Shown here piece after piece: positions 2,303-12,353 of a stretch of 43,126 nucleotides of DNA (position 1 is the stretch's first letter; each line of letters starts with the position of its first letter). Source of the DNA: Candidatus Woesearchaeota archaeon (GTDB taxonomy: Archaea; Nanobdellota; Nanobdellia; Woesearchaeales; JAGVXP01); NCBI GenBank assembly GCA_018303725.1, contig JAGVXP010000017.1:1-43126 (forward strand), written 5' to 3'. Under the pieces are notes generated by a model. The model did not search any database. It was given only the letters and a program-made list of their open reading frames with translations, and had not been told where the DNA came from. The position numbers and the translations under genes were made by a program.

Positions 2303-3232
2303 ATGGCAATTTCAATAGAGAAAAAACATGCTGAAATCTATGCAAAAGTGGCGGACGAGGCAAATAAAGCCTCAAAAAGATTCAGCAACAAAGGTTATAA
2401 AACAAAACCAACAGTATATGAAAAATTGCTAAACAAGAAAGATGTGACAATAGAAAAAAAGAAAAAAGAATTGGCGGATAATTTGCATAAATTGATTGTA
2501 AAAACCTTTTCAGTCTGTATAAAAAAAATAAAAACTAAAAAGATTATCGAGGATTTAAAAACCAATTTAAAATTGCTGAGGTTATTGATTGACAAATTGG
2601 GCGATATAAACTATTACCTAGAAACAGTATTTTTAGAGGAGATTGGCCAAATTAAGGTTAAAGGTTTAAAGAGCTTAGACAAGAAAAATTTAAAAGAGCT
2701 GTCAGCCAAAGAAAGGGAGCACGTTCCAAAAAAGGAGTTAGAAAAAATAGAGTTCACTGTTTATAAACTGATTGAGAAGAGCATATTTTTAGATAAAAAA
2801 TTATTGGATGAGTATAAAACAAAAGAAGAGAAGATTGTAGAGCAAAAGAAGGTTGGCCTAAAGGATTTAGAGTCGTTACTAAAAAAAGAATCAGAGCTGT
2901 TATGCCATATAGAAGCCAAATTGCCGCCCCCATCAAAAGTAAGGGGCTTGTTGTTGGAGGAAACAACATTCAGCCATTGGGCATCCAGGGTGTTGGCATT
3001 GCTTGTTGCATTTGAAAATGAGTATGAAAAAGAAAAGATTATTTTTAATGAAATAAAAAAGAACAACAAGACAAAAAGAAGGATTGATAAAAAGATTAAG
3101 CATTTAATAAAGGAAAAGTGGGACCTTTTGAAAATAAAAGAAAAAAAGGCCCTTTCAATGGAGGAGGTTGGAGAGATAGAGGAAGAGCATTTGAGAAGAT
3201 TCCATCATTGGGCTTCAACTTCAGCTTTATAG
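2303..3232 (+). CDS. Unknown lysine-rich helical/coiled-coil protein inserted in the rpl21e-rpoF-DUF655 operon
   Basis: A 309-residue protein I do not recognise. It is almost entirely predicted helix, strongly basic and rich in K, E and L, with long heptad-like stretches (about residues 50-120, 150-200 and 240-290). There is no signal peptide, membrane segment or cysteine motif. It ends with a short non-helical tail HHWASTSAL, and a similar HWASRVLALL occurs near residue 226, suggesting two related helical units. It has its own TTTATAAATA box and a GGGGGG ribosome-binding site before the ATG, and stops three bases before the DUF655 start, so the two are probably co-translated. The position beside an RNA polymerase subunit and an RNA-binding DUF655 gene hints at a role with nucleic acid, but that is inference only. 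Confidence 0.8.
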   Translation: MAISIEKKHAEIYAKVADEANKASKRFSNKGYKTKPTVYEKLLNKKDVTIEKKKKELADNLHKLIVKTFSVCIKKIKTKKIIEDLKTNLKLLRLLIDKLGDINYYLETVFLEEIGQIKVKGLKSLDKKNLKELSAKEREHVPKKELEKIEFTVYKLIEKSIFLDKKLLDEYKTKEEKIVEQKKVGLKDLESLLKKESELLCHIEAKLPPPSKVRGLLLEETTFSHWASRVLALLVAFENEYEKEKIIFNEIKKNNKTKRRIDKKIKHLIKEKWDLLKIKEKKALSMEEVGEIEEEHLRRFHHWASTSAL

Positions 3233-3235
3233 AAA

Positions 3236-3793
3236 ATGGAGCGCGCAAAAGAAGAAACGGCAATTGTATTGGACTTTTTGCCAAATGGATACCCGTTTGA
3301 CAGCAGGCCGATGCATCTAAAAACACCAATAGTCCAGTCTATTGGGAAGGAGCATTTCGTTTTGTTAGAGTTAGTTCCAAAAAAAGGCATTCATCTGCAG
3401 CCGCATGAGGAGGTTTATATCGGAGAGGGCAAAAGAGACAAGATACATCATATAATTGGAAAGCTAAGTTTGGATAAATTGACTGCTACTGCTAAAAATG
3501 AGCTGGACTATACTATTAAAGAGATTGTAAAAAAGAATGAAAAAAGGTTTGTTGATTTCTTTAACAAAGCCCAGCCTCTTAGCACAAGAATGCACCAGCT
3601 TGAATTGTTGCCTGGTTTAGGAAAAAAACATATGTGGGAGATAGTAGAAAGAAGGGGGGAAGAGCCATTTAAGGATTTTGATGATTTAAAAAAAAGGGTT
3701 AAATTAATGCCAGATCCAGAGAATGTTATAATCAAGAGGATAATGAAAGAGTTGGAAGAGACCGAAAAGCACAAAATCTTTGTTGATGTATAA
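3236..3793 (+). CDS. DUF655 protein (putative RNA-binding)
   Basis: A 185-residue DUF655 protein. The N-terminal half is an OB-like region (AIVLDFLPNGYP, VQSIGKEHFVLLELVPK, VYIGEGKRDKIHHIIGKL). The C-terminal half holds a helix-hairpin-helix segment, HQLELLPGLGKKHMWEIVER, near residues 118-138, typical of non-specific nucleic-acid binding. The family is universal in archaea and usually sits directly after rpoF. Its biochemical function is not established; a role in translation or tRNA/rRNA handling is inferred from context. Confidence 0.88.
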   Translation: MERAKEETAIVLDFLPNGYPFDSRPMHLKTPIVQSIGKEHFVLLELVPKKGIHLQPHEEVYIGEGKRDKIHHIIGKLSLDKLTATAKNELDYTIKEIVKKNEKRFVDFFNKAQPLSTRMHQLELLPGLGKKHMWEIVERRGEEPFKDFDDLKKRVKLMPDPENVIIKRIMKELEETEKHKIFVDV

Positions 3794-3816
3794 TCCTTAA
3801 ACTGATTATCCAGAGT

Positions 3817-4494
3817 ATGTATGATATGTACCAAAAAAAAATAAAAATTGGGAATATAACCACCTCTGAGGTAGAGATCAGGGATTTGGTAAAGGCGTGG
3901 CTGGCTATTTCAATTGCATTTGGTGTTCTTATAGCCAATTCATTTTTTTCAACAAGATTCTATTATGCCTTTATAATCTCTTCTTTGTCTGTAGGTGTTG
4001 GTTTTATAGCTCATGAACTATCCCACAAGTTTATAGCCCAAAGATACGGGTGTTTTGCCGAGTTCAGAGCTTTTAATTTTTATCTGATATTGGCAATTGC
4101 AATGTCCTTTTTAGGTTTTATAGTTGTTGCTCCTGGCGCTGTGATGATATCTGGCCCAATAGGCAGAAGAAGGAATGGAAAGATATCGGCAGGAGGGCCA
4201 GCAGCAAGCATTATTATTGCCCTAATCTTTTTTTTAATGCTTTTTTTACAGGTTTGGGGTATTCCCCAATCATTAAACATCATACACCAGGCTAGATTGG
4301 ATATTATGGCCCTTCCATTAAATTATGCAATACCTGCTGTTGGATTTTTTGTTAATATATTGATAGCTGCTTTTAATTTACTCCCCTTCGGGATTTTTGA
4401 TGGCAGAAAAATATTTAATTGGAATAGAATAGTTTATATATCCATGTTTGTAATAGCTTACTCAATGCTGGTCATAAGTTTTTTGAGGATTTAA
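3817..4494 (+). CDS. Site-2 protease family (M50) membrane metalloprotease
   Basis: A 225-residue polytopic membrane protein with about five hydrophobic segments. The zinc ligand motif HELSH (HExxH) lies in a membrane helix near residue 68, and the second family motif is NILIAAFNLLPFGIFDGRKI near residue 185, whose aspartate supplies the third zinc ligand. A GPxGRRRNGKISAGGPAASI stretch matches the conserved glycine-rich membrane segment. Such enzymes cut within membranes; some release regulators, but many archaeal ones have no known substrate. The start could also be the second ATG at 3826. It overlaps no gene and is followed two bases later by a small zinc-ribbon protein that may be co-expressed. 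Confidence 0.85.
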   Translation: MYDMYQKKIKIGNITTSEVEIRDLVKAWLAISIAFGVLIANSFFSTRFYYAFIISSLSVGVGFIAHELSHKFIAQRYGCFAEFRAFNFYLILAIAMSFLGFIVVAPGAVMISGPIGRRRNGKISAGGPAASIIIALIFFLMLFLQVWGIPQSLNIIHQARLDIMALPLNYAIPAVGFFVNILIAAFNLLPFGIFDGRKIFNWNRIVYISMFVIAYSMLVISFLRI

Positions 4495-4495
4495 G

Positions 4496-4690
4496 ATGAC
4501 AAGATGCCCGTATTGCGGTAGAAATTTGAATGAGACAGAAAGATATTGCTGGTTTTGCGAGCAGGATGTTTCTAAGATTATAGATGAAGGGGAAAAACCA
4601 AAAACAGATTTACCAAAGAGTTCTGATAGGAGCTTGCTGGATGATGTAAAGGGGTTGTTTAAGAAGATTAAGCCAAAATTTAGAAAATAA
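4496..4690 (+). CDS. Small zinc-ribbon protein
   Basis: A 64-residue protein with an N-terminal four-cysteine zinc ribbon (C4, C7, C18, C21: CPYC...CWFC) followed by a charged, probably helical tail that ends in KKIKPKFRK. It starts immediately after the protease stop, so translational coupling is likely. The function is unknown. The stop lies six bases before a palindromic repeat element. Confidence 0.75.
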   Translation: MTRCPYCGRNLNETERYCWFCEQDVSKIIDEGEKPKTDLPKSSDRSLLDDVKGLFKKIKPKFRK

Positions 4691-4964: not shown

Positions 4965-5345
4965 TTAGCCTCTCTTTTCCAAGACTAGAGCATTGTTTTT
5001 GAAGTTAATAAATGTTATGTTATCCCCTTCCTTTATTTCATCGGCTAATTCAGGGATTATATCAGCATCAACTGTTTCATAGCTGTGTGAATCCATGATT
5101 TGGACTTTATTTCCTGATTTGGATATAACCTGGCCATCTTTTCTTATTATATCCACCGTTTCAACGTTATCGTGGTGCATAAGGTTAATTGCCTTTTCTC
5201 CTTTGCCAAGCAAAGGCTGGATAAAAAGCTTTGTTTTTGAATGGGAATGTGTTCCATAGGCTACCAGCTCTTTTCTTATCACCCTAAAGATTTCATTGTT
5301 GTAGTTTATGTACATGCCTTTTTGCAGCTCTCTTGCTTCTGTCAT
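4965..5345 (-). CDS. eif5a: Translation factor aIF5A (eIF5A/EF-P family) lacking the hypusine lysine
   Basis: A 126-residue protein with the two-domain eIF5A layout: an N-terminal KOW-like domain (LQKGMYINYNNEIFRVI) and a C-terminal OB fold (KVQIMDSHSYETVDADIIPE...EGDNITFINF). The factor rescues ribosomes stalled at difficult peptide bonds, and its tip lysine is normally modified to hypusine within a G-K-H-G motif. Here the aligned loop reads AYGTHSHSK, so residue 32 is threonine, and the following glycine is serine. The protein therefore cannot be hypusinated at the usual place. The gene is leaderless, with a TTTATAAG box 24 bases before the ATG. A second canonical aIF5A elsewhere in the genome cannot be excluded. 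Confidence 0.83.
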   Translation of the reverse strand: MTEARELQKGMYINYNNEIFRVIRKELVAYGTHSHSKTKLFIQPLLGKGEKAINLMHHDNVETVDIIRKDGQVISKSGNKVQIMDSHSYETVDADIIPELADEIKEGDNITFINFKNNALVLEKRG

Positions 5346-5667: not shown

Positions 5668-8604
5668 ATGGCAGATAAAGATACTGGCAGAAATCTTGAA
5701 ACAGTAATTGGAGAATCAGAATCAAAAAGGATTATCTTTATTGATAGCCCTAAGTATGTCAAAAAGGTTAGGGATACTTTTGAAAAAGAAACAGGATATG
5801 ATGTTCTTTATTTCGGAAACGCTAAAAAAGCTATGGGTGTTTTTGAAGAATTCCAGCCAGATATGGTTTTTATTGGAGCTACTAGCAATATAGGCATGAA
5901 ACCATTAGAACTTGCTAAAGAGATTAAAGAGGCTAAACCAAATACTGGAGTAGTCCTTATGCCTCAGGCGCCTGTCACTGATGATCAAATAAATAAAGCA
6001 GAGGAAGATGGTATAATCAGTCTTGTAAGGAAACCTTTTGAAGGAAGCGAACTTATTCCTACTATAAAACGGTTTTATGATACAAGGTCTAAAGAAACCC
6101 CCGTTCTTCTTATTTATCAACATAATGAAGATAAGGAATTAGCAAGAAGAAAGCTTATACAGGCTGGTTATACAGTTAGAGTAGCCCATGTTGGTCAAAT
6201 GCCTGCAAATAGTGAAAGTTATCTTCAAATTGATATGTCTGGTTGGGAAAAACCAGTATGGATAGGCAGGGCTCGATGGCAGGAAAATCGTAGATTCTTT
6301 AAAGAACTTGATTTAACGCAGCTTAGCTTAAGAGAAATACAGAGAGTAGCAAAGCTAATACCTAGCCTGAAAGATAGTAACAGAGAAACCTATGAATCAA
6401 TTGTTAAATGGACAAGAGATGTAACAGTTTATAATGAGGAGCAAGAGATTGTTTCAAAATATATAGATGCCCTAAGAGATCTCCAACATGAAAAAGGAGC
6501 TAAGAAGGAGTTATATTTGCCTATTGAAGTTGTAAAAGAAATGGAAGCTAAATTTGAACTTATAAGGAACTATCTAGCTAAAAAAGTAGCGGGATATAAA
6601 AACGCAGGAGACAAAACCCCAGAGGGTACATTAAAAGCTAAAATAGTTGATGAAATACTGCACAGAAATGAATTGAGATATTTTTTGAATACAACATCAG
6701 AAGCAGATGCATACAGTTTTCTAAGAAAAGAAGATTTAAAAAACTTGCCTTCTCAAATAGGAATGCTAGAACGAGTAATAGATGTTAGTGATGATGAGCT
6801 AACAGAATATCTGCTTGAAAAAGAAATTAAAAATAAAATTAAGAATTTAATGAAAAGTGAAGAACCGGAAAAACTAGATGATAGATATAAGGATGAAAAC
6901 AGAGGAAGAGTAGCTGCTTATGTAAGAGAGGCGGGATCAAAATTAAATAAGATTAGAGGCACATTAAAAGAGAAAAAAATAGCTGCTGCTAAACGCCAAT
7001 TAGAAGTAATGGGTGTTTTGGGCTTTATAAATGAAGAACATATGGTGCCAGTTGGAGCTATACACCATATTTTTAATTCCAGATGTGATTTAGGGGTAGC
7101 TGGGTCATGGGTTAAAACAAGAAAAGTTTATTCAGACACTGCTTATTTAGCAGCACTTACTGAATATGACATATTATCTGATTTAATCGAACAAAAATTT
7201 ACTCGTGTCCCTATAGCTTTAGATTTGATAAAGATTCCAGAATTTAGTGTTCTAGATATGCAATTTCTAGATGCTCCTACTTTATATGAGAGAATTAATG
7301 GAACAGAAAGGAAAGGCCAGCAAATAAAGCCTATTTCAGAAGACAGGGCTTTAGAATATTTGCTTTCTGCTCAGGAACAGCTTGGGTTTATTCAGGAATA
7401 TGGCTGGAGAAGATATAAACAAGATTTACCTAAGTTAGGAAGAGGTGATATTGGAGATAGTGATATTGTATTTAGGGAGGGTGTTAAACTTACAGAATAC
7501 AAGGGTGAAGTAAGAAACAAACCATTTGTAAGACTCAATAGAAATCCTGAGGGGAGAAGTTTGTATTATACAAATGAGATAGAATGTATTACTATAGCCC
7601 AATTTGAAGCATATTGCGGAGGTAGTATAAACCATATTGCAAAGAAAAATTTAATTGACGGTTCTGCTGTAAAAAATAGGGTGTTGGTAGCTGCTTCTTT
7701 AGAATCCCCAAAATATGATAGTGATGGAAACCCTAGAAATGTCATAACATATGATGATGGCAGTATTGCTTATCTTGATTTTCATTTCCGTATGGTTGAG
7801 TGCGGGCTTAAAGACTGGGTTAAACAATGGCAAAATGGAAAATTGTTTTTGGGCAAAAAATTTGAAGAAGCTGTAAGGAATGTTGATTATGAAGCGTGGA
7901 AAAGCCAAAAAAATGAAAATGATGCAGGATACCAGGAATGGGTGAAAAGAAAAAGAGCAGCTGAAATATTTTTAAGAGAAAATAATTACATAACAACTGC
8001 TGAAATAGAAACAAATCTTCTTGATAGGGGGTTATTATTGCAAAGAATGCATGAAGCACAAACAGAATTAGAGGAAACCAAGCGTATAACTGATCAAAAC
8101 GATCCACAAAGAGCATATAAGGGGGGAGCTGCTAACAGATATCTAAAAGAGATTGATAAGCTCATTAAAACAGCTGATATAAAAAATCTTAGAGAAGCTA
8201 ACTTCTTTTATGGAAATCCTGAATTTAAGAGATTTGTATCAGAAGACGCAAGAAACAAAAATCTGTTGTGGTTTGATTTTATGAGCAGCTTAGTCCATGA
8301 ATTTTATATTGGTTATGAAGCAAGAAATTTTCATAGAGCAGAAACACAGGAAAAAAAACAGGCTGCTCTTAATAGGATGCTATACCATCAATTATGGGCA
8401 AAGGTTGCAGATGATCGCCTGATACATGATAAACCAGAGTATATGGATTACTTCAATAAGAGTGTAAGTGGGCAAAAAACCCCTTATTCTATCTCTGATA
8501 AAGACTATTCTATCTCTGATAAAGACATTTCAACTATACAATTAGAACGACAAGGATTGGATCTAATCGGCAAAGATATTAGCAAATTTTATAAATTAGG
8601 TTAG
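5668..8604 (+). CDS. Large protein: degenerate response-regulator receiver domain plus kinase-like (APH-type) core
   Basis: A 978-residue protein without an assigned family. Residues 20-137 have the alternating layout of a CheY-like receiver (RIIFID, PDMVFIG, GVVLMP, VRKPFE), but the phospho-acceptor aspartate position is Gly70 and only one acid of the acidic pair is present, so it should not be phosphorylated. A second partial receiver-like start follows at 144-176. Residues 260-450 are helical. Residues 455-740 resemble a kinase/aminoglycoside-phosphotransferase fold: an N-lobe with candidate lysines near 483-486 and an FSVLDMQFLDAPTLYERI hinge-like stretch, then DGNPRN (D686, N691, the D-x4-N catalytic-loop spacing) and YLDFH (D704) as metal-binding motif. 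The remaining 240 residues are helical and end with a duplicated YSISDKD. The kinase assignment is my inference. Confidence 0.75.
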   Translation: MADKDTGRNLETVIGESESKRIIFIDSPKYVKKVRDTFEKETGYDVLYFGNAKKAMGVFEEFQPDMVFIGATSNIGMKPLELAKEIKEAKPNTGVVLMPQAPVTDDQINKAEEDGIISLVRKPFEGSELIPTIKRFYDTRSKETPVLLIYQHNEDKELARRKLIQAGYTVRVAHVGQMPANSESYLQIDMSGWEKPVWIGRARWQENRRFFKELDLTQLSLREIQRVAKLIPSLKDSNRETYESIVKWTRDVTVYNEEQEIVSKYIDALRDLQHEKGAKKELYLPIEVVKEMEAKFELIRNYLAKKVAGYKNAGDKTPEGTLKAKIVDEILHRNELRYFLNTTSEADAYSFLRKEDLKNLPSQIGMLERVIDVSDDELTEYLLEKEIKNKIKNLMKSEEPEKLDDRYKDENRGRVAAYVREAGSKLNKIRGTLKEKKIAAAKRQLEVMGVLGFINEEHMVPVGAIHHIFNSRCDLGVAGSWVKTRKVYSDTAYLAALTEYDILSDLIEQKFTRVPIALDLIKIPEFSVLDMQFLDAPTLYERINGTERKGQQIKPISEDRALEYLLSAQEQLGFIQEYGWRRYKQDLPKLGRGDIGDSDIVFREGVKLTEYKGEVRNKPFVRLNRNPEGRSLYYTNEIECITIAQFEAYCGGSINHIAKKNLIDGSAVKNRVLVAASLESPKYDSDGNPRNVITYDDGSIAYLDFHFRMVECGLKDWVKQWQNGKLFLGKKFEEAVRNVDYEAWKSQKNENDAGYQEWVKRKRAAEIFLRENNYITTAEIETNLLDRGLLLQRMHEAQTELEETKRITDQNDPQRAYKGGAANRYLKEIDKLIKTADIKNLREANFFYGNPEFKRFVSEDARNKNLLWFDFMSSLVHEFYIGYEARNFHRAETQEKKQAALNRMLYHQLWAKVADDRLIHDKPEYMDYFNKSVSGQKTPYSISDKDYSISDKDISTIQLERQGLDLIGKDISKFYKLG

Positions 8605-8638
8605 GTTCTTTTCTTATATAGATTATATAATTTTGAAA

Positions 8639-9523
8639 ATGGCAAATACACAATATGGGGCAGTGCTTATTGACTTAGATGGAACTTTATTAGGCAGGGA
8701 CAATAAAACTATTCCACTGGCCAATGTAGACGCTATTAAAGCTGCTCACACAAACTTTGGAGTAGATGTTGTATTAGCTTCTGGAAGATATAGCCCATCT
8801 TTGGAGCCATACAGCGATCAATTAGCTATTCAAGGTTGCCCTTTAATTTGTTTAAATGGCATGGTCAAATCAGCTAGAGAAAATGGAGCACGGCATTCTT
8901 TGTGGCACAGCTACATCCCTACACAGTTTATGAAAGACTTTATTAACTATTCTAATGGCAGGAATGCAGCCAAAAAACAAATTTATCTGCAGTGCTTTAT
9001 ACATGATGAAAATACACAACAAGAAATACTCTATTCGTTAGATGATAAAACTTCTAAGGAGTATGCAGAAATATATGCTGCAAATAGCGGTTCTGAATTT
9101 AAATTTGTATCTTCATTCCAAGAATTAGATATGGGAAAGATATTGAAGCTTATCATGTTAGATAAGGATCCATCATTAATTGATTTGATACAAGGTGAAT
9201 TTAAGTGTAATGGGTATACTCCTCTTCAGATAGTGAGGACTTATCAAGGCAGTGACAAAAGACCTGCTCAACTTGAAATAATGAACATGTCAAAAGGGCA
9301 GGCAGTAGAAAAACTAGCTGGGTTGTTGCGTATTGACAGAAAAAAAATCATTGCAATCGGTGATGGGGATAATGATGTAGAAATGTTAAAAGCTGCTGGA
9401 TTGGGTGTTGTTGTAGCAAATGCAACCCAAAAAGCAAAGGAAGCTGCAGGCTATACCACCTCAAAAAATAATGAAGAAGGCGGTGTTGCTGAAGCAATAA
9501 ATAAATTCATTTTAAGCTCTTAA
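8639..9523 (+). CDS. HAD superfamily hydrolase, Cof/subfamily IIB type
   Basis: A 294-residue haloacid-dehalogenase phosphatase. Motif I is LIDLDGTLLG (nucleophile D12, acid D14). A serine/threonine motif II region lies near VVLASGRY, a C2-type cap occupies the middle, a conserved lysine lies in MSKGQAVEKL, and motif IV is AIGDGDNDVEML. The AANATQKAKEAA ending is typical of Cof-type sugar-phosphate phosphatases. The substrate is unknown; phosphoglycolate or sugar phosphates are candidates. I prefer the ATG at 8639 because a TATATAGATTATATAA box lies just upstream and the conserved sequence starts there; a TTG two codons earlier is the alternative. It follows the receiver/kinase-like gene by 34 bases. 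Confidence 0.88.
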   Translation: MANTQYGAVLIDLDGTLLGRDNKTIPLANVDAIKAAHTNFGVDVVLASGRYSPSLEPYSDQLAIQGCPLICLNGMVKSARENGARHSLWHSYIPTQFMKDFINYSNGRNAAKKQIYLQCFIHDENTQQEILYSLDDKTSKEYAEIYAANSGSEFKFVSSFQELDMGKILKLIMLDKDPSLIDLIQGEFKCNGYTPLQIVRTYQGSDKRPAQLEIMNMSKGQAVEKLAGLLRIDRKKIIAIGDGDNDVEMLKAAGLGVVVANATQKAKEAAGYTTSKNNEEGGVAEAINKFILSS

Positions 9524-9592: not shown

Positions 9593-10501
9593 TCAGACAT
9601 GGATGTCTATTAAAGAATCAATAAGCTCTTTAATCCTCCTATGGATTATGATTAAATAATAGACAAACATAGGATCAGCCTCCTTAATTTTAAAGAGCTC
9701 TTCCGGGTTTAATTCCTTTATTCTCTTAAATAAATTATTAACCTTTCCCTTGCTATAATTATAAAAAATATTATAATAATCACTAAATATTTTGTAAAGC
9801 TCTTCATAAACGACTAAAAGCTGCCTTGGCAGTGGATTCAGATTGGAGGAGTAGTGCACTGCCAATAAACTAAACTGATCAGACAAGGCTTCAAAATCCC
9901 TAAGGAAGTGGTAATAAAAAGCGGTTTGCTTAAAATCCATCTGCCCTTTGGAGATAAGCTCCCTTGCACAGAAATTTGTAAATTTGTTTATTGACCTATC
10001 AACAAAAAACATATTTTTCAATGTGTTTTTATCTTTTTTCTTTAGCGCATCCAAAGAATCCTTTACCATAGTAGTTAATAGGACAAATGTTCTCCTTAAT
10101 GCTGCATCAAAACCAGTTTCTGATGTCCCTGACAGGTCTTTTATTATAAAATGGTCATTTTCCTGTGTTACAATTTCAAAACCAATTGTTTGGTCATCCA
10201 TTTTCTTGTTTAATGTTTCAACTAGCTCAGGATTATCCTTGCTGCTGTAATTTACCCTTATCTCTTTACAGCCGCTCCTGTAAAAAGAAGTGATATATCT
10301 CTCAGTTACATTGGTTAAATGTGGAGGATCAATTTCGGCATTTTTTGATTCAATGCCTTTTCCAGTAGAGATTAGGATCTTATTCCCCTTTTCCTCAATC
10401 TCTAATTCATCCCCCTTTTTGATGCCATGCTGCACTGCCCACTTCCTAGGCAGGGATATAAGTTGTGTAGAACCAGCAATCTGTATTACTTTCCTTCTCA
10501 T
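9593..10501 (-). CDS. phoU: AbrB-type DNA-binding plus PhoU-like regulator
   Basis: A 302-residue protein. Residues 1-48 form a SpoVT-AbrB swapped-hairpin DNA-binding domain (MRRKVIQIAGSTQLISLPRK, KKGDELEIEEKGNKILIS). The remainder is an all-helical PhoU-like region, with repeated helices around DSLDALKKKDKNTLKNM and FYYHFLRDFEALSDQF. This AbrB-PhoU fusion is common in archaea and is usually annotated as a phosphate uptake regulator, although no phosphate transporter genes are near, so the signal sensed is unknown. The upstream 120 bases contain several TATA-like stretches. Confidence 0.82.
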   Translation of the reverse strand: MRRKVIQIAGSTQLISLPRKWAVQHGIKKGDELEIEEKGNKILISTGKGIESKNAEIDPPHLTNVTERYITSFYRSGCKEIRVNYSSKDNPELVETLNKKMDDQTIGFEIVTQENDHFIIKDLSGTSETGFDAALRRTFVLLTTMVKDSLDALKKKDKNTLKNMFFVDRSINKFTNFCARELISKGQMDFKQTAFYYHFLRDFEALSDQFSLLAVHYSSNLNPLPRQLLVVYEELYKIFSDYYNIFYNYSKGKVNNLFKRIKELNPEELFKIKEADPMFVYYLIIIHRRIKELIDSLIDIHV

Positions 10502-11051: not shown

Positions 11052-12326
11052 CTAGCCTTTTATTATCCCATAGCCTATTAACCTAAACCTATGGCTGATC
11101 ATCCTTGAGATGGTAACCCTAGAGCCGTCATGAGCACAAAAAGGCAATCTTAATTTATATGTGATTTTGTTCTTTTTTAATTCTATAACAACACCGACCG
11201 TAGCCGCTGAGTTAACATTTAGCATCAGCGCTTCATTTAATTTTATAGGCTCGACATTAAGCTCTTCTTTAACGCCAACAACCCTTTTTAATAAGGTCAC
11301 TTCCAGCAAAATATCATACCATACAGGAGGCAGCTTGTCATGCAAGCCAACAACAGAACCGACTAATGTGTCAGATTTCACTATAGAGGGGTCTAAAGAT
11401 GTCAGCACCCCAATAGAGCCTCCAGGACCAACCTCATTGATAGAATGGCCCCCGGTCCTTAACCCCATTATTTCTGTTTTTATTGGCTTCCAAATTTTTT
11501 GGTTTTTTTCCAATACCCCATAACCGGGCCTGATCTCTATTTCATCACCAACCTTTAACCTTCCTTCTTTTAATGAGCCGCCTAGAACGCCGCCTACAAT
11601 TTTTTTTATTGGTGTTCCCGGCTTGTTTATATCAAAAGAGCGGGCAACAAACATAAGAGGATCCTTGCTAGAGTCTCGCTTAGGCACAGAGAATAGCTCA
11701 TCCATTGTTTTTATCAAAGCGCTTAAACCAACCTTATGCTGCGCTGATATTGGTATTATTGGCGCCTTTTCGTAAGCTGTTCCTTTAATAAATTTTTCAA
11801 TCTGTTCATAATTAGTTATAGCACCTTCCTCGCTAACCAAATCAATTTTGTTTTGTACAATTATTATATCTTTTATACCAATTATTTCCAAAGCCATTAA
11901 ATGCTCTCTTGTTTGCGGCTGCGGGCATTCTTCAGCTGCTGATACCAACAATAATGCGCCGTCTATTATGGTAGCTCCTGCAAGCATCGTTGCCATGAGG
12001 CTTTCGTGGCCTGGCGCATCGACAAAAGAAACTTTTTTCAATGGTTCTGCCTGGCCATTGCATTTTGGACATTTTTCTTTAACAGTGTATTCAGCACACT
12101 CAGAGCATTTCCTAAAAACGACGTCAGCATACCCCAGCCTTATTGTTATCCCCCTTTTTATTTCCTCAGAATGAGTATCAGCCCATTTGCCACTCAATGC
12201 TTCCAATAAACTGGTTTTCCCGTGGTCAACATGACCGACTAAGCCAATATTTAGAACCGGCTGTTGTCCCTCAATAATTTTTTCTTCTTTTGCTTCTTCT
12301 TTTTTAACTGATTTTTTTCTTGGCAT
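11052..12326 (-). CDS. eif2g: Translation initiation factor aIF2, gamma subunit
   Basis: A 424-residue GTPase, the core of the aIF2 complex that brings initiator tRNA to the ribosome. Motifs visible: G1 GLVGHVDHGKTS, switch I region EEIKRGITIRLGYA, the zinc knuckle CSEC...CPKC, G3 DAPGHE, G4 NKID and G5 ISA, then domain II (DINKPGTP) and domain III ending with FCAHDGSRVTISR. The ATG at 12326 begins a short lysine/glutamate-rich leader before the G domain. A TTG seven codons upstream is the only alternative. It lies 27 bases after S6e on the same strand, the usual archaeal pair. Confidence 0.95.
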   Translation of the reverse strand: MPRKKSVKKEEAKEEKIIEGQQPVLNIGLVGHVDHGKTSLLEALSGKWADTHSEEIKRGITIRLGYADVVFRKCSECAEYTVKEKCPKCNGQAEPLKKVSFVDAPGHESLMATMLAGATIIDGALLLVSAAEECPQPQTREHLMALEIIGIKDIIIVQNKIDLVSEEGAITNYEQIEKFIKGTAYEKAPIIPISAQHKVGLSALIKTMDELFSVPKRDSSKDPLMFVARSFDINKPGTPIKKIVGGVLGGSLKEGRLKVGDEIEIRPGYGVLEKNQKIWKPIKTEIMGLRTGGHSINEVGPGGSIGVLTSLDPSIVKSDTLVGSVVGLHDKLPPVWYDILLEVTLLKRVVGVKEELNVEPIKLNEALMLNVNSAATVGVVIELKKNKITYKLRLPFCAHDGSRVTISRMISHRFRLIGYGIIKG

Positions 12327-12353
12327 ATTTTTTAAGTTTTTAATCAATAATTC

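Follow-up and report, generated by a model that had tools for sequence, protein, structure and literature searches.

A putative kinase-phosphatase pair convergent with an AbrB-PhoU regulator suggests a possible undescribed signalling module in Woesearchaeales

Ser/Thr kinases that carry TPR or beta-propeller domains are known from bacteria, and the relatives of the gene described here likewise fuse a kinase to TPR or PD40 units, although they differ in kinase branch and in gene context. With the APH/choline kinase branch (PF01636, PF01633) our family shares the catalytic Asp-x4-Asn and a downstream metal-binding Asp, but it is set apart by an extra C-terminal helical motif (H..Y..R..YH...A), by large multi-domain architectures and by its coupling to AbrB-PhoU genes. 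Enzymatic outputs fused to an N-terminal receiver, the same arrangement as in our protein, feature in a survey of response regulators from archaea (PMC5847659); among the outputs described in the available part of that survey none is a protein-kinase-like domain fused to a receiver, and, in comparison with the regulators covered there, our receiver lacks the phospho-Asp, the second acid and the Thr. SpoVT/AbrB-PhoU regulators such as Haloferax PhoU2 (PMC6267482) and Thermococcus TK2245 (PMC7325993) combine an N-terminal DNA-binding domain with a PhoU domain, as the regulator at our locus probably does. For PhoU2 a role in regulating phosphate uptake was predicted (PMC6267482), and the protein is tied to phosphate transport, whereas the Woesearchaeales AbrB-PhoU genes are often multi-copy and face variable phospho-enzymes. 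Taken singly, the kinase fold branch, the receiver, the HAD phosphatase and the AbrB-PhoU proteins are already known. A search of open-licence papers returned no description of the AbrB-PhoU coupling, a receiver-APH fusion, the kinase family or the cassette, and the type of module behind our gene is possibly new.

The gene lies in a stretch of 43,126 nucleotides from a Candidatus Woesearchaeota archaeon, hereafter the window. It is a real open reading frame at 5668..8604 on the forward strand, begins with ATG and encodes a receiver-like/protein-kinase-like protein of 978 aa, as judged from the ORF, Pfam and a family profile built without the window sequence. The receiver domain comprises residues 20-141 (5725..6090, +) and was assigned from PF00072, from PDB alignments to Spo0F and 8svz and from a reading of individual residues. 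The PF00072 match (residues 26-133) barely exceeded the Pfam cut-off (30.4 vs. 30.2 bits), and Spo0F in the PDB was matched at 1.5e-7. A first-pass annotation of this DNA had described a receiver-like domain lacking its phospho-aspartate, and our alignments agree: G70 occupies the acceptor position. The second acid is replaced by S27 and the Thr position by M98/P99, which leaves D26 and K122 as the only active-site residues kept. Because the phospho-Asp, the second acid and the Thr have all been lost, the domain cannot receive a phosphate in the usual way and is probably a docking or regulatory domain. The segment that follows, residues 144-180 (VLLIYQHNEDKELARRKLIQAGYTVRV; 6097..6207, +), possibly begins a second, truncated receiver-like unit, since it shows weak similarity to the N-terminus of a protein at another locus, L068 (31% over 42 aa, E 0.002). 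A SerK_C match at residues 392-440 was below the Pfam cut-off and was judged to be a chance helical match.

When the window protein alone was compared with Pfam, NCBIfam, the PDB and the genome contigs, only the receiver was recognised and no relatives were found; the matches of the whole-protein query elsewhere were almost all to receivers. Within the order, the core's first relative came from another genome (L028, genome G016; 744 aa) and was similar near its C-terminus (31% over 68 aa, E 2e-4). A two-row profile then yielded two more relatives, and a five-row profile, one seed of which (L069) had originally been found via its PhoU neighbour, recovered a family in 26 of the 353 genomes of the order; in all, some 70 family members were found. 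Family HMMs built without the window scored the window protein at 45-56 bits (E 1e-16 to 1e-19, Z=1), compared to a maximum of 7.3 bits among 300 shuffles per round, and the match spanned residues about 498-925. From the family HMM and alignments we delimited a protein-kinase-like domain with large insertions and a C-terminal helical extension at residues about 464-925 (7057..8442, +).

The first-pass annotation had proposed a kinase-like core from the spacing of D686, N691 and D704. When the protein was shuffled 2000 times, 35% of the copies contained a motif of the D-x4-N...D type, so the spacing alone is no evidence, and the weight of the proposal comes instead from family conservation. The three residues do lie where the annotation placed them. 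Across 31 aligned family domains, N691 and D704 are invariant (31/31) and D686 is kept in 30 (97%), giving a catalytic-loop motif D686-GNPR-N691 (7723..7740, +) followed by a metal-binding Asp, the DFG/DFE equivalent, at D704 (7777..7779, +). The family alignments also show a C-terminal motif, H877..Y883..R886..Y906-H907...A911 (8296..8400, +), whose residues are typical of core family members.

Compared against the PDB, the family profile matched solved kinases, namely APH 3csv (3e-9), Ser/Thr kinase 4eqm (5e-8), choline kinase 4r77 (1e-7) and GCN2 (4e-6). After removal of the more APH-like members, GCN2 was still matched at 8e-5, with the catalytic loop aligned to the GCN2 sequence 'RDLKPMN...DFG'. 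Pfam APH (PF01636) matches 13 of the 31 family members at E<=0.01. The window protein itself matched neither PF01636 nor any kinase model, and its five closest family members together gave no significant match to kinases, so the kinase link runs via the family. Given that the family profile reaches APH, choline kinase and protein kinases, we classify the window protein, from sequence, as a predicted divergent protein-kinase-like phosphotransferase of Woesearchaeales, on the APH/choline-kinase side. AlphaFold, run on three-row alignments, gave unusable models for both the window core and the kinase domain at L124 (pLDDT 36 and 39), and the kinase fold is predicted from sequence; a Foldseek search with the low-confidence L124 kinase-domain model (pLDDT <40) produced no match at E<=0.001.

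We also considered whether the core is likely to be active. The beta-3 Lys column holds K in 20 of 21 core members and T484 in the window protein, where it is flanked by K483 and K486, while E499 aligns with the conserved alpha-C-type Glu. Further departures from the family consensus are E706->H, E722->Q and Y684->D, and together with the beta-3 position they would fit a pseudokinase. The protein could in that case be a scaffold in which neither module is catalytic and which acts by binding, for example by tethering the HAD phosphatase or the PhoU regulator. The receiver certainly has no phospho-acceptor, as such a scaffold would have it, and the four departures point the same way; set against them, D686, N691, D704 and E499 are all present and two lysines sit beside the beta-3 position. 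We consider a purely non-catalytic scaffold rather unlikely, and on its residues the window protein is likelier to be an active enzyme than a pseudokinase.

Downstream of the kinase-like gene, 34 bases past its stop, an ATG at 8639 opens a gene for a Cof-type HAD-IIB phosphatase (8639..9523, +), which scored 142 bits against TIGR00099, above the curated cut-off of 137, and matched PF08282 at E 1.9e-46; the HAD phosphatase reported at this distance in the first-pass annotation is thus confirmed. After a gap of 69 bases, and convergent with both genes, comes an AbrB(MazE-type)-PhoU regulator (9593..10501, -), which our own HMM matched at 2e-109. Its AbrB/MazE DNA-binding domain is clear (PF04014, 36.2 bits vs. 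a cut-off of 24.7); its PhoU domain scored below the cut-off for PF01895 (19.7 vs. 23.5 bits), which the homologue at L031 exceeded at 32.5 bits. The first-pass annotation had overlooked this regulator and described the protein as stand-alone, a view that gives way to one of a multi-gene cassette. It had also placed a zinc-ribbon mini-gene before the kinase-like gene. An ORF of that kind does lie upstream, at 4496-4690, though not directly: 977 bases and an opposite-strand EF-P/IF-5A-like gene (4965..5345, -) intervene, and it was ruled out as a cassette partner because of that opposite-strand gene. In the same region of the window (3236-4690), a 185-aa ORF and an M50 peptidase gene form a conserved run, with the zinc-ribbon ORF following them; the 185-aa ORF and the peptidase gene recur together at L064.

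The tail-to-tail arrangement is not peculiar to the window. In the order, 25 of 36 family genes lie tail-to-tail with an AbrB-PhoU regulator with zero or one gene between them; the count is qualified by the origin of the L069 seed, which came from its PhoU neighbour, and by the contig edges at which several of the family loci counted as lacking PhoU end. This count is made up of 20 of 27 genes from the kinase-profile search, convergent at their 3' ends (16 directly and four with one gene between), and five of nine more from a later search of the same order. The coupling is weak in other orders of the class, where only two of 11 family genes are convergent with AbrB-PhoU, and none of 24 control loci centred on other receiver genes had an AbrB-PhoU gene within 1.5 kb. 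AbrB-PhoU genes occur in 129 of 145 genomes, often in several copies that face variable phospho-enzymes. Of 40 AbrB-PhoU loci sampled separately, 29 were flanked on the 3' side by a convergent gene (median 459 aa), and the Pfam matches among the 3' partners and second genes were almost all to phospho-enzymes: PHP (twice), histidine phosphatase, inositol monophosphatase, DHH, NT5C, HAD, guanylate kinase, amino-acid kinase, APH and protein kinase, in addition to one receiver. The convergence rule is not universal, as 11 of the 40 loci had no convergent neighbour and in a second type of context SMC or pyruvate phosphate dikinase genes lie co-directionally 3' of AbrB-PhoU (L128:4959-8462, +; L167:5714-8374, +).

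The DNA-binding domain of the MazE/AbrB type, together with a fixed partner position whose occupants vary greatly, as is often seen for toxins, raises the possibility of a toxin-antitoxin-like module, with the kinase or another partner enzyme as toxin and the AbrB/MazE-type protein as antitoxin. We regard this as very improbable: the genes are convergent rather than co-transcribed and do not form a co-directional operon of a small antitoxin and a small toxin, the partners are mostly multi-domain proteins of 400-1300 aa (978 aa in the window), the regulator carries a probable PhoU domain and a phosphatase often stands beside the kinase.

The single gene that separates a kinase from AbrB-PhoU usually encodes a phosphohydrolase. 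It is the HAD in the window, a 2-phosphosulfolactate-phosphatase-type (ComB-like) protein at L028 and a PHP protein at L121; at L105 it is a second kinase. Other AbrB-PhoU loci pair a phosphohydrolase with a kinase-like gene as well (L130, PHP; L144, IMPase; L145, PHP; L153, NT5C), the kinases of L145 and L153 entering the family only after iteration. The first-pass annotation had suggested that kinase and phosphatase might form a pair, and the comparison carries this further than it had gone: since unrelated phosphohydrolases (ComB-like, PHP, IMPase, DHH, NT5C) take the place of the HAD in other genomes, a predicted kinase-phosphatase pair is well supported.

The slot occupied by the cassette is bounded by genes outside it, the EF-P/IF-5A-like gene on the left and an eIF2 gamma gene (11052..12347, -; translation read by eye) on the right, the latter in the same order at L073 and L064. 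The L073 locus (genome G060) mirrors the window, with an EF-P-like gene (59% identical), a kinase-like gene, a PHP-like gene, PhoU and eIF2 gamma, where the kinase-like and PHP-like calls were made by eye and Pfam was silent on the latter. At L064 (G009) a HAD faces an AbrB-PhoU gene 56% identical to that of the window, with no kinase gene beside the two; the HAD is weakly similar to the window's (27% over 85 aa). The kinase is therefore dispensable, and the two loci together indicate that the slot turns over while the type of its content is kept.

The reading we lean towards is that the window encodes a divergent kinase with a dead receiver as docking or regulatory domain which, with the HAD, would form a writer/eraser pair placed tail-to-tail with the AbrB-PhoU gene and controlling DNA binding by its product. 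The target phosphorylated by the kinase would be either a small molecule that the PhoU domain senses or the regulator itself; the HAD would remove the phosphate from the same target; and the PhoU domain would read the phospho-signal, the regulator altering its DNA binding through the AbrB domain. The phosphohydrolases beside the kinases are of small-molecule types, and a phosphometabolite is thus slightly favoured over the regulator protein as substrate. What the sequences support is membership in a kinase family, conserved catalytic residues, a dead receiver, the HAD assignment and a recurrent layout; from these we infer catalytic activity, a shared pathway, the substrate and a transcriptional output. 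Convergence of genes does not prove a common pathway. The kinship of the core to APH/choline kinase and the Cof sugar-phosphatase type of the HAD would also suit a metabolic small-molecule kinase and a sugar-phosphatase-like HAD with no signalling role, the PhoU gene being a mere neighbour. This alternative is improbable, since the convergent linkage to AbrB-PhoU recurs and the domains that accompany the kinase in its relatives (TPR, PD40 propeller, receiver) are of signalling type.

Returning to the writer/eraser reading, the repetition of the layout in dozens of relatives with different enzymes suggests a signalling module that changes fast and is not yet described. We tentatively suggest, as a possibility short of an even chance, that Woesearchaeales have a previously undescribed module in which an AbrB-PhoU gene lies tail-to-tail with an interchangeable phospho-writer (kinase-like, with variable sensors) and phospho-eraser (HAD, PHP, IMPase, DHH, NT5C or ComB-like), and which may functionally replace two-component systems. 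Signal-responsive gene regulation in the small-genome DPANN archaea is largely unknown; the recurrent cassette of kinase, phosphohydrolase and DNA-binding PhoU is a testable phospho-signalling candidate for them and hints at what archaeal PhoU domains may sense.

The sensor parts of the kinase family vary, relatives carrying TPR repeats, a receiver or a PD40 propeller, the last placed C-terminal to the kinase at L107, L108 and L114. At L141 (genome G080), a gene with DHH and AbrB-PhoU genes beside it encodes a protein whose receiver is intact ('VLIVDDD...VVDINMPKMDG', Pfam 67.6 bits) and precedes a degenerate kinase-like motif; the core of this protein had no match to the family HMM, and the parallel with the window is thus one of layout only.

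Several further observations were made around AbrB-PhoU genes. Their 5' neighbours are Lrp/AsnC-type (8/39) and TrmB (4/39) regulators (L126-L165) and assorted housekeeping genes. At L161 the second gene convergent with AbrB-PhoU (6445-8901, -) encodes an unambiguous protein-kinase domain (Pkinase in Pfam, 40.4 bits). Near the 5' end of the family kinase that converges on AbrB-PhoU at L069, an ORF (2953-4155, -) has a C-terminus that by eye resembles a caspase/C13 peptidase ('YVGTHG...DACHSGDF'). In the window's own genome, five related tandem ORFs (L166:1139-5095, -; G000:C43) are convergent with another AbrB-PhoU gene and repeat the motif 'EPRIESSLLYT...FVHDxYxxFFxAKxxA'; the one ORF tested had no Pfam match. 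The same genome also encodes a second receiver-kinase fusion (L167:3-944, -; G000:C39), in which a receiver-like domain is joined to a kinase of another fold, that of the amino-acid-kinase family, with both parts scoring below the Pfam cut-off.
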